A stretch of 64,000 bases of DNA from Rhodospirillaceae bacterium (lineage in GTDB: Bacteria > Pseudomonadota > Alphaproteobacteria > Rhodospirillales > UBA2165). A model generated the notes under the pieces. It ran no database searches and was not told where the DNA came from. It worked only from the letters and a program-made list of their open reading frames with translations. The DNA is taken from assembly GCA_947467145.1 (NCBI GenBank), contig CANIGJ010000016.1:1-64000 (forward strand). Reading direction: 5' to 3'. The position numbers were made by a program, and so were the translations under genes. Below are positions 23,920-46,661 of this stretch, one piece after another (position 1 is the first letter of the stretch; each line of letters starts with the position of its first letter).

Positions 23920-24315
23920 ATGAAAGCCGCCCACACTCGAACAAATAAGCGAGTTGCGGCGTTCACCTTCGGGCTCACATCGGAAACGCGTGCCGCTTGG
24001 TTGTTGCGCTTCAAGGGCTATCGCATCTTGGCGCGCCGCGCCAAACATCCGGTCGGTGAAATCGACCTGGTTGTGAAGCGCGGAAAATTGTTGGCCTTCG
24101 TCGAGGTCAAAGCGCGGCGCAGCGTCTGCGAGGCGATCCATTCGATCACCCATAATCAGCGTCGCCGCATCGAACGCGCGGCCGAGGCATTCGTTGCGCA
24201 TAACTCTACGCTGGCCGGGTGCGATTGGCGTTTCGATGTCGTCATCCTCGAAGGGCGCTGGGGCTGGCCGAAACATGTGCCCGATGCCTGGCGACCGGAT
24301 GAATCACCGGATTGA
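23920..24315 (+). CDS. yraN: YraN family (UPF0102) nuclease-like protein
   Basis: 131 residues; ATG directly follows the rsmI stop. Restriction-endonuclease-like core: AAWLLRFKGYRILARRAKHPVGEIDLVVKRGKLLAFVEVKARRS, with the conserved GEIDL Asp and VEVK Glu-Lys. Function unproven; a Holliday-junction-resolvase-like fold has been proposed for the family. Confidence 0.92.
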   Translation: MKAAHTRTNKRVAAFTFGLTSETRAAWLLRFKGYRILARRAKHPVGEIDLVVKRGKLLAFVEVKARRSVCEAIHSITHNQRRRIERAAEAFVAHNSTLAGCDWRFDVVILEGRWGWPKHVPDAWRPDESPD

Positions 24316-24340
24316 CGGCAAAACGGATCGCGGGTAATTT
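24312..24340 (+). promoter_or_regulatory. Promoter of the asd leader transcript
   Basis: TTGACG (24312-24317) and TAATTT (24335-24340) are 17 bases apart. The predicted transcript start, near 24346-24348, lies only a few bases before the leader-peptide ATG, so the leader would be translated from an essentially leaderless mRNA, as known for the trp leader of Sinorhizobium. Confidence 0.5.
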
Positions 24341-24350
24341 CCGCGCCACC

Positions 24351-24443
24351 ATGATGCACCGCGCCCATACAATTATTGTGCAAGCTACGACCAAACGCAA
24401 AACGACCACCTTGGGTGGGCGTTCGAGGTCGTGCATGCGCTAA
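24351..24443 (+). CDS. Threonine-rich leader peptide upstream of asd (30 aa)
   Basis: An ATG-ATG start opens a 30-codon frame ending in TAA at 24441-24443. The peptide begins MMHRAHTIIVQATTKRKTTT: six of its first 20 residues are Thr (ACA, ACG, ACC, ACG, ACC, ACC), with two Ile and two Lys. Threonine and lysine are end products of the pathway that asd serves. Ribosome stalling on the Thr codons would control the downstream hairpins, as with thrL of E. coli. Too short for any homology argument; the evidence is composition, position and the alternative RNA folds. Confidence 0.6.
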   Translation: MMHRAHTIIVQATTKRKTTTLGGRSRSCMR

Positions 24444-24500
24444 GCGCAACCATCACCAACTCGAAGGGCCCCACCGGATCGGATGGGGCCTTTGTCATTT
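24415..24500 (+). promoter_or_regulatory. Attenuator: terminator and competing antiterminator before asd
   Basis: Terminator stem AAGGGCCCCA/TGGGGCCTTT (24464-24473/24484-24493) with a T-rich tail TTTGTCATTT. The competing antiterminator pairs GGGCGTTCGAG (about 24417-24427) with CTCGAAGGGCCCC (24460-24472). An earlier pairing ACGACC/GGTCGT, between the leader codons and 24427-24432, would release the terminator when the ribosome does not stall. This is the classic three-state amino-acid attenuator geometry. Confidence 0.55.
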
Positions 24501-24540
24501 CTGGGCCGCGTCTCTCCGGTTTCATCAGGAGAACACGTCC

Positions 24541-25596
24541 ATGAATGCCATTGATCAAATAAGCAATTCCCAACGTAACGCGGCGCAGAGATCCGCTCCC
24601 AAGACCGTTGCCGTCGTCGGCGCGACCGGCGCGGTTGGGCTGGAATTCCTCACCTGCCTCGCCGAACGCAACTTCCCCATCAAGCAGCTCAAACTGCTGG
24701 CCTCAAAGCGCTCGGCCGGCAAGGTCTTGTCCTTCAAGGGCCAGGACATCGTCGTCGAGGAATTGACCGAACACAGCTTCCACGGCGTCGATATCGCGCT
24801 GTTCTCGGCGGGCGGCGATATCTCCAAGCAATATGCTCCGATCGCCGTTAAGGCCGGTTGCGTCGTCGTCGATAATTCGTCGGCCTTCCGCATGACCGAC
24901 GGCGTGCCGCTGGTGGTGCCGGAAATCAACCCGGAAGCGGTCGCCGCGCATAACGGCATCATCGCCAATCCCAATTGTTCGACCATCATCGCTATGACGC
25001 CGCTGTGGCCGATCCACAAGGTGAACCCGCTGCGCCGCGTGACGGCCGCGACCTATCAGGCAGCGTCGCGTGCGGGTGCGGCGGCCATGGCGGAGCTGGA
25101 GGATTCGACCCGCGCTTATCTCGACGGGCAGGAGTACGCGCCGAAGGTGCTGCCGCACCCTTACGCGTTCAACCTGTTCAGCCATAACAGCAAGATCGAC
25201 CCGCAGACCGGCTACAACGACGAAGAAGCCAAGATGACGCGCGAAAGCCGCAAAATCTTCGGCGTGCCGGATCTGCGCGTCTCGGCGACCTGCGTGCGCG
25301 TGCCGGTGCTGCGCGCCCACGCCGTGGCGATCACCTTCGAATGCGAACGTCCCATCGGCTGGCAGACCGTGCGTCACATCATCGCCGATGCGCCGGGTGT
25401 GCAGCTGGTCGACGACCGCGAGCACAATCTGTTCCCGATGCCGCGCGACGCGTCGCACCAGGACGACATCCTGGTCGGGCGCATCCGCCAGGATCTGAGC
25501 GATCCGACCGGTCATTCGGTGTCGCTGTTCGTCGCCGGCGATCAGCTGCTGAAGGGGGCCGCGCTCAACGCCGTGCAGATCGCCGAACTTCTTTAG
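24541..25596 (+). CDS. asd: Aspartate-semialdehyde dehydrogenase
   Basis: 351 residues from the ATG at 24541, with AGGAGA upstream. NADP-binding VAVVGATGAVGLEFL, phosphate-contact VDNSSAFRM, catalytic Cys146 in IIANPNCSTIIAM. Reduces aspartyl phosphate to the semialdehyde at the branch point to lysine/diaminopimelate, threonine, isoleucine and methionine. The only gene behind the leader attenuator. Terminated by a strong hairpin. Confidence 0.98.
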   Translation: MNAIDQISNSQRNAAQRSAPKTVAVVGATGAVGLEFLTCLAERNFPIKQLKLLASKRSAGKVLSFKGQDIVVEELTEHSFHGVDIALFSAGGDISKQYAPIAVKAGCVVVDNSSAFRMTDGVPLVVPEINPEAVAAHNGIIANPNCSTIIAMTPLWPIHKVNPLRRVTAATYQAASRAGAAAMAELEDSTRAYLDGQEYAPKVLPHPYAFNLFSHNSKIDPQTGYNDEEAKMTRESRKIFGVPDLRVSATCVRVPVLRAHAVAITFECERPIGWQTVRHIIADAPGVQLVDDREHNLFPMPRDASHQDDILVGRIRQDLSDPTGHSVSLFVAGDQLLKGAALNAVQIAELL

Positions 25597-25604
25597 CCGA
25601 CCGA

Positions 25605-25642
25605 GAGCCTTCCACCTCCGATCGGGTGGAAGGCTCTTGCCT
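25605..25642 (+). terminator. Terminator after asd
   Basis: A 12-bp perfect stem GAGCCTTCCACC/GGTGGAAGGCTC with an 8-base loop begins 8 bases after the asd stop; the tail TTGCCT is only weakly T-rich. Confidence 0.7.
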
Positions 25643-25688
25643 TCCAAAAACCGTATAATATAACATAATAATAGTTATAGTATATCAT
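25637..25688 (+). promoter_or_regulatory. Zur-like boxes and promoter of the zinc operon
   Basis: Inverted arms TATAATATAAC (25654-25664) and GTTATAGTATA (25674-25684) match at 10 of 11 positions around a 9-base AT spacer. Each arm also looks like its own half-symmetric GTTATA/TATAAC box, the pattern I associate with Zur sites in alphaproteobacteria. TTGCCT (25637-25642) and TATAAC (25659-25664), 16 apart, would give a promoter that these boxes overlap. Confidence 0.55.
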
Positions 25689-25711
25689 CCGGTTTTGTGG
25701 GGAGAGGGCAG

Positions 25712-46585: not shown

Positions 46586-46661
46586 GCCGCCTTAGCTCAG
46601 TCGGTAGAGCATCGCATTCGTAATGCGGGGGTCGCGTGTTCGAGTCACGCAGGCGGCACCA
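46586..46661 (+). tRNA. tRNA-Thr (anticodon CGT)
   Basis: 76 bases with encoded CCA (46659-46661). Acceptor stem GCCGCCT/AGGCGGC, D arm GCTCAGTCGGTAGAGC, anticodon stem TCGCA/TGCGG (one T-G pair) with loop TTCGTAA giving anticodon CGT at 46619-46621, T arm GCGTG-TTCGAGT-CACGC. All arms pair; the discriminator base is A. Confidence 0.97.

Follow-up and report, generated by a model that had tools for sequence, protein, structure and literature searches.

Structure of the locus upstream of asd

The window, by which we mean the complete 64,000-nucleotide stretch of Rhodospirillaceae bacterium contig CANIGJ010000016.1 that was analysed, harbors a gene for an aspartate-semialdehyde dehydrogenase (asd), whose translated product matches the TIGR01296 asd_B model (404.4 bits; cut-off 324.2) as well as the Pfam domains Semialdhyde_dh and Semialdhyde_dhC. 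The region between this gene and the preceding yraN contains a predicted promoter, a short reading frame and a series of complementary segments (Table 1). According to the initial annotation, asd is preceded by a promoter, by a leader of 30 codons of which six among the first 20 encode Thr, and by mutually exclusive stems; this description is confirmed both in the sequence and in its relatives. The six Thr codons occupy positions 7, 13, 14, 18, 19 and 20 of the leader, with Lys codons at positions 15 and 17, while no Shine-Dalgarno site could be found before the leader AUG of the window. Segment 3 is common to the terminator and the antiterminator, rendering the two stems mutually exclusive. 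Most relatives carry a -35 box TTGACG or TTTACA at an equal distance, and many have C-rich and G-rich arms flanking a short loop that are comparable, by eye, to the 1:2 hairpin.

Table 1. Coordinates of the predicted leader element and of the asd gene in the window.
Feature	Position	Strand	Remarks
-35 box TTGACG	24312-24317	+	Read from sequence; overlaps the end of yraN
-10 box TAATTT	24335-24340	+	17-nt spacer after the -35 box; ends 10 nt before the leader AUG
Leader frame MMHRAHTIIVQATTKRKTTTLGGRSRSCMR	24351-24443	+	ATG at 24351, stop at 24441-24443; 30 codons
Segment 1 ACGACCACC	24402-24410	+	Three Thr codons; pairs as 5' arm with GGTGGG (24414-24419) in the 1:2 hairpin
Segment 2 GGTGGGCGTTCGAG	24414-24427	+	5' arm of the antiterminator
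Segment 3 CTCGAAGGGCCCCACC	24460-24475	+	Antiterminator 3' arm; also terminator 5' arm
Antiterminator (2:3) GGTGGGcgTTCGAG : CTCGAAgggcCCCACC	24414-24427 : 24460-24475	+	Predicted pairing
Terminator hairpin (3:4) AAGGGCCCCACCGGATCGGATGGGGCCTTT	24464-24493	+	Predicted; -20.5 kcal/mol
U-rich tail TTTGTCATT	24491-24499	+	Read from sequence; interrupted
Possible hairpin TCTCC : GGAGA (24513-24517 : 24528-24532)	24513-24532	+	Covers the asd Shine-Dalgarno site; tentative
asd, second copy	24541-25596	+	Aspartate-semialdehyde dehydrogenase (TIGR01296 and Pfam); proposed regulated gene

A consensus scan of the window called neither a promoter nor a + strand terminator at the element, and both terminator-like sites that it reported lie on the opposite strand. 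The promoter matches 8 of 12 consensus bases, where the scanner threshold is 9, while the terminator hairpin includes one unpaired A and is followed by a broken U-tract (TTTGTCATT), and the scanner made no call. Given these weak matches, the case for the element rests on its conservation rather than on consensus scores. Among 200 shuffles of the leader RNA, one reached a fold as good as that of the window (z -2.67). No Rfam family, amino-acid operon leaders included, matches the element at the gathering threshold, and at E-values of up to 10 the only match was ftsZ-DE (E-value: 0.45; bit score 17.2, where the gathering score is 72.2). The sole Rfam match in the window at the gathering threshold is a tRNA at 46586-46658.

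Genomic context of the second asd gene

A further asd gene is located elsewhere in the same genome. It shares 46% identity with the window copy and lacks the element, and the asd of the window is a second, divergent copy. A single asd match was obtained in each of 23 other genomes sampled from the same family (42-46% identical), all of them of the other asd kind. In the window, asd and its leader (24316-25697) sit between yraN and a gene starting at 25697, the counterparts of which are adjacent in a genome of the same genus (G001, locus L252). In G001 a yraN-like frame is followed directly by the counterpart of the 25697 gene (461 aa, without a Pfam match and porin-like by eye), leaving no room for asd or a leader. 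On this arrangement, asd and its leader appear to constitute a single cassette that was either acquired in the genome of the window or lost in G001. The neighbouring rsmI is closest to that of G001 (72%; next best 61%), which argues against the window being a stray contig.

Two asd matches were found in all twenty leader-bearing hosts tallied (G000, G163, G198, G245, G251, G280, G298, G325, G332, G339, G357, G362, G388, G421, G427, G436, G482, G513, G516 and G622), and likewise in nine more hosts of family f96. The f96 loci L133-L151 carry an asd of a 57%-identity type, several of which have their own AUG a few bases past a TATGTT-like box, and the asd mRNA of these loci may itself be leaderless. 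Four further asd genes near the alphaproteobacterial type lie on contigs titled Marinimicrobia (L060), Bryobacterales (L061), Bordetella parapertussis (L066) and Phycisphaerales (L072); the titles of these metagenome-assembled genomes (MAGs) may be wrong, or the asd may have been transferred.

Conservation of the leader element

Relatives of the window asd were collected from a class-wide sample of 385 genomes and two narrower searches. All parts of the element, from the leader frame and the spacing of the promoter to the antiterminator and the hairpin, are found again in front of related asd genes (asd2) in one named MAG and in 13 alphaproteobacterial families of the sample. In a maximum-likelihood tree of 71 asd rows, obtained with a quick, non-exhaustive search, the element is present in 23/23 rows of the clade holding the window asd (SH-aLRT 92) and in 0/13 of the other rows of the enclosing group (support 99), the presence labels having been assigned by reading the upstream regions. 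The tree excludes 23 redundant asd2 rows, namely 22 of f96 (seven with a leader) and L064, as well as the fragment L116, while its 25 rows outside the asd2 set were chosen by hand. The element also occurs in L122, which falls outside the clade.

A fixed rule of at least seven Thr and Lys codons in 14, with at least two Thr, is passed by 19 of 22 clade loci (all rows except L124, which was omitted from this count), where shuffles would give approximately none. None of the 13 neighbouring loci passes, and neither do the 12 canonical asd copies that were scored, which come from 12 hosts among the 20 that bear asd2. The three clade loci that fail (L111, L112 and L113) retain the RNA frame but have a smaller number of control codons. 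An absence of the hairpins or of the Thr-rich frame from relatives had been named as grounds for rejecting the initial reading; both are conserved before related asd genes.

The position of the leader start is similarly constrained. The first in-frame AUG past the -10 box lies at 6-10 nt in 29 of 31 leader loci, the exceptions L115 and L129 being kept in the denominator. In a stricter test, the best promoter within 100 nt upstream was located in each of 20 representative loci, and in 17 of them its end falls 5-11 nt ahead of the leader AUG (6.1% in shuffles; L104, L117 and L118 fall outside this range and are counted), in agreement with the earlier claim that the AUG stands a few bases from the predicted transcript start. 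For this test the leader starts of L060, L113 and L152 were shifted manually to an in-frame ATG further on, the longest frame having its start within or close to the -10 box. A Shine-Dalgarno-like string precedes the leader in one of the 20 representatives only, where it falls within the -10 box of that locus. Transcription generally starts approximately 7-9 nt past the -10 box and, combined with the gap between this box and the AUG, this would leave a 5' UTR of approximately 0-4 nt. As such, promoter spacing points to a near-leaderless frame with a predicted transcript start at or close to its AUG.

Co-variation of the alternative stems

Pairing was analysed in the same 20 representatives, drawn one per close group where possible, with three from f70. 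The antiterminator arms aligned too poorly for RNAalifold, which on MAFFT alignments recovered the terminator stem only, and a swap test was therefore chosen, in which the pairing of each locus's own arms is compared with that of arms exchanged between loci over 20,000 permutations. The antiterminator arms paired at -32.2 kcal/mol with their own partners, compared to -28.1 kcal/mol when swapped, and 0/20,000 permutations were as good; the terminator arms gave p = 5e-5. As the loci share ancestry, these permutation and rank p values overstate their independence. The antiterminator was furthermore better than dinucleotide shuffles (p < 0.05) in 17 of the 20 representatives. Its arms have changed while remaining paired, as in the window (TTCGAG:CTCGAA), L114 (TTCTGGT:AACCAGAA), L118 (TCGGTG:CACCGA) and L122 (CTCGTGG:CCACGAG), and the 2:3 pairing thus co-varies across loci in this computational comparison.

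The terminator hairpin was located by means of a fixed GCCCC/GGGG anchor, and its CCCC:GGGG core is paired in 21 or 22 of 22 sequences. An automatic hairpin search was discarded, since in L100 and L109 it settled on the 4:5 hairpin and in other loci on hairpins that were too long. The U-rich tails among the relatives range from TTTTTT to none, and the U-tract is absent in seven loci (L114, L115, L117, L118, L119, L120 and L152), which means that not all members can have intrinsic termination as their output.

Occurrence of the RNA frame at thrS and dapA

A covariance model of the element (R1), built from 22 sequences, yielded 88 matches at an E-value of at most 0.01 in the 385 genomes; matches to the 22 training sequences themselves carry no evidential weight. 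Among 53 distinct places examined, 14 precede a threonyl-tRNA synthetase gene (thrS), recognized by Pfam in two cases (L240 and L241) and by eye in the remainder (L189, L196, L197, L199, L201, L207, L208, L211, L216, L218, L227 and L233). One of these, L240, is located in the genome of the window (G000:C3:43175-43263, - strand; R1 E-value: 0.013), where a Thr-rich leader (MHKSASTTATTTATTFWGP) and a hairpin precede thrS. Two places in this genome without a Thr-rich leader score better in R1 (E-values of 1.0e-4 and 0.004), and the evidence for L240 is therefore its Thr run and position rather than its score. On that evidence, this genome likely has a Thr regulon of which L240 is a second member. 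The thrS leaders resemble that of asd in being found with R1 and in having a Thr run, followed by GG in most, and a similar type of hairpin ahead of the gene, but they combine Thr with little Lys and have threonyl-tRNA synthetase as their target.

R1 matches were also found before dapA, identified by Pfam in L225 and L231 and by eye in L219, L229, L230 and L234. Adjacent Lys codons are present in the leaders of L229, L230 and L234, two separate Lys codons in L231 and one each in L219 and L225, by which lysine attenuation at dapA is only suggested. The model is not specific, as it also retrieved ABC transporter and GNAT acetyltransferase loci and apparent ordinary terminators among the 385 genomes. 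The peptides are not Thr-rich in L212, L228, L237 and L238 (ABC transporter) or in L215 and L245 (GNAT). The RNA frame may have been reused with other sensor codons, or R1 may be catching plain terminators.

Amino acid content of the leader peptides

Among 300 leader-core residues from 19 asd2 loci, 110 (37%) are Thr, compared to 41±5 in shuffles, and 51 are Lys, compared to 16±3. This enrichment is restricted to the leader frame, the other two frames being rich in P/R or D/H instead. The initial annotation had termed the attenuator threonine-type; the Thr enrichment stands, but the label is incomplete, as the Lys codons are enriched too. At least two Lys are present in each of the 19 asd2 cores, with both AAA and AAG used across the set, and the mean number of Lys per core is 2.68 at asd2 against 0.62 in 13 thrS leaders (p = 1.4e-6; L233, the leader of which is identical to that of L227, was left out). 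The number of Thr per leader is about equal at thrS and asd2 (5.7 and 5.8, respectively).

The canonical asd genes of the window's order are preceded by an attenuator-like element that is built differently, in which 6/40 regions pass the rule for Thr and Lys codons (0.4% in shuffles), others being recognized by eye. In 40 further asd upstream regions of the class, which were picked by hand and have no shuffle control, at least six Thr and Lys codons in 14 are found in seven. Three of these from f68 and L286 have clear hairpins, and no such clear terminator was observed in L275, L278 and L285. Thr/Lys runs are situated at or near the leader stop before canonical asd in L009, L019, L028, L052, L053, L054, L058, L059, L267-L269 and L286. 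The recurrence of the same residue pair in different RNA architectures supports joint sensing, and the composition of the asd2 leader suggests that it would respond to Thr and Lys together.

Proposed mechanism and alternative explanations

We propose, with a probability of roughly 0.83, that the element is a ribosome-mediated attenuator which would sense charged tRNA-Thr, and probably tRNA-Lys, and control the second asd. The frame, the near-leaderless spacing, the co-varying antiterminator and the terminator hairpin are conserved in the computational comparison, and from them we infer a transcript start, ribosome stalling, termination and a response to each amino acid. Transcription would start at or within approximately 4 nt of the leader AUG, and a ribosome would load on the near-leaderless 5' end. 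With an ample supply of Thr (or Lys), this ribosome would reach the stop codon and cover segment 2, allowing the 3:4 terminator to form. When either is scarce, it would stall in the Thr/Lys run and disrupt the 1:2 hairpin, upon which segment 2 would pair with segment 3 and RNA polymerase would read through into asd. The mixture of Thr and Lys codons would be explained by aspartate semialdehyde feeding both threonine and lysine synthesis.

It is possible, though we consider it rather unlikely, that the leader senses threonine only and that its Lys codons are incidental. Thr is the most frequent leader-core residue, the window leader has six Thr against two Lys, and at thrS, too, this RNA frame is rich in Thr. 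A threonine-only sensor is, however, difficult to reconcile with the two or more Lys, encoded by both codons, in every asd2 core when the thrS leaders have so few, or with the recurrence of Thr and Lys runs at other asd genes in differently built elements. Similarly, the Sinorhizobium frame SEP5 is described as having three Lys codons alongside six Thr codons (PMC10117765). The Lys codons could instead serve an unstructured 5' arm, against which the contrast with thrS also argues. That the hairpin is simply the terminator of yraN, with a Thr-rich frame arising by chance, is very improbable: although the promoter overlaps the end of yraN and the consensus scan is weak, the same element precedes this asd behind a different upstream gene in L060 (an accA-like frame by eye), the yraN-like frame of G001 adjoins the counterpart of the 25697 gene with neither asd nor leader between them, and the frame, antiterminator and promoter spacing are conserved. 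We give equally little credence to a metabolite-binding riboswitch, rather than a leader peptide, driving the terminator. A structured and conserved RNA before a biosynthetic gene would suit one, but the conservation tracks codons and hairpin arms, and no Rfam family is present in the element at the gathering threshold, the best weak match being ftsZ-DE.

The loci without a U-tract are the reason for retaining a second layer of control as a rival or an addition, the probability of which we judge to be low, though not negligible. In such a dual-level cascade the 3:4 hairpin would stop transcription and a 5:6 hairpin, with segment 5 at 24510-24517 in the window, would hide the asd Shine-Dalgarno site, while the antiterminated state would pair 4:5 and free that site. 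Loci that lack a U-tract would then act at the translational level alone, with an erm-like output. The 5:6 arms of each locus outperform swapped arms (p = 0.003 in 20 representatives; p = 0.01 in 15, with five loci dropped), and by eye they vary yet pair, as in L100 (GTCTCC:GGAGAC), L115 (GTCTCTC:GAGAGAC) and L120 (GACCCTGT:ACAGGGTC). In the six U-tract-less representatives, furthermore, the 5:6 duplex has a predicted energy of between -13 and -22 kcal/mol. Against this, the 4:5 pairing does not co-vary (swap p = 0.23 and 0.46) and exceeds shuffles (p < 0.05) in 5/20 representatives, while 5:6 does so in 4/20, with L114, L117 and L118 among the U-tract-less loci in which it does not, and the 5:6 hairpin of the window itself is no better than shuffles (p = 0.10). 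In equilibrium folding, exposure of the Shine-Dalgarno site was higher in the ON state in 8/20 representatives and lower in 2/20 (p = 0.20), and the U count was uncorrelated with exposure of the site (p = 0.51).

The loci can be arranged in a series, from a strong U-tract with little or no Shine-Dalgarno hairpin (L106, L108 and L110), through both features (the window, L095, L104 and L109), to the hairpin with no U-tract (L114, L115, L117-L120 and L152). A broader scenario, which we put forward as speculative and somewhat less probable still than the cascade, is that the asd2 clade has a single Thr and Lys leader whose output shifted in evolution from termination, through termination combined with six-segment translational masking, to masking alone. 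The wider frame family, at thrS for Thr and perhaps at dapA for Lys, would then constitute an aspartate-family attenuation regulon.

Relation to known systems and biological significance

The thr operon leader of E. coli, thrL, pairs Thr with Ile and controls thrABC. The asd element resembles thrL in its Thr-rich leader peptide, its exclusive antiterminator and terminator and its aspartate-family target, but it pairs Thr with Lys, targets asd, has a predicted near-leaderless start and was matched by no Rfam model. A single close precedent, SEP5, was found in the open-licence literature, while Vitreschak 2004 and Lopatovskaya 2010, which are reportedly comparative surveys of attenuation, may hold earlier predictions. 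The available parts of PMC4833913, PMC2965389, PMC1262725, PMC4117421 and PMC10272879 do not describe the element.

SEP5 of S. meliloti is a translated small frame, containing the six Thr codons and three Lys codons mentioned above, that lies in the 5' UTR of a gene named 'aspartate dehydrogenase' by the authors, who suggest a leader peptide and report conservation only in Sinorhizobium (PMC10117765). It shares with the window asd the presence of Thr and Lys codons in a 5' UTR frame. In contrast, its control run is near the 3' end, closer to the leaders of canonical asd than to that of the window, and the description available gives no RNA structure for it (PMC10117765). The same source describes the S. 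meliloti trpL (rnTrpL) attenuator leader as a leaderless frame that begins at the first base of the transcript and encodes a 14-aa peptide (PMC10117765). That system is a Trp attenuator of 14 aa, whereas the window leader has 30 codons, is rich in Thr and Lys and has a start predicted from promoter spacing.

Ribosome-mediated attenuation itself is known; the asd target, the combination of Thr and Lys as sensor residues and the near-leaderless design look new. On comparative evidence the predicted attenuator is real and conserved, to which the present analysis adds lysine and the recognition of its gene as a second asd. Small frames of this kind are easily missed by annotation. The predicted near-leaderless start, which is conserved, represents a natural system for ribosome loading on short 5' ends while coupled to polymerase, and the range of outputs among the relatives, if real, would show one sensor moving between transcriptional and translational control. 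The routes to lysine, threonine and methionine diverge at asd, and a single peptide reading two of the end products would, if true, provide a compact ribosome-based check on a branched pathway.
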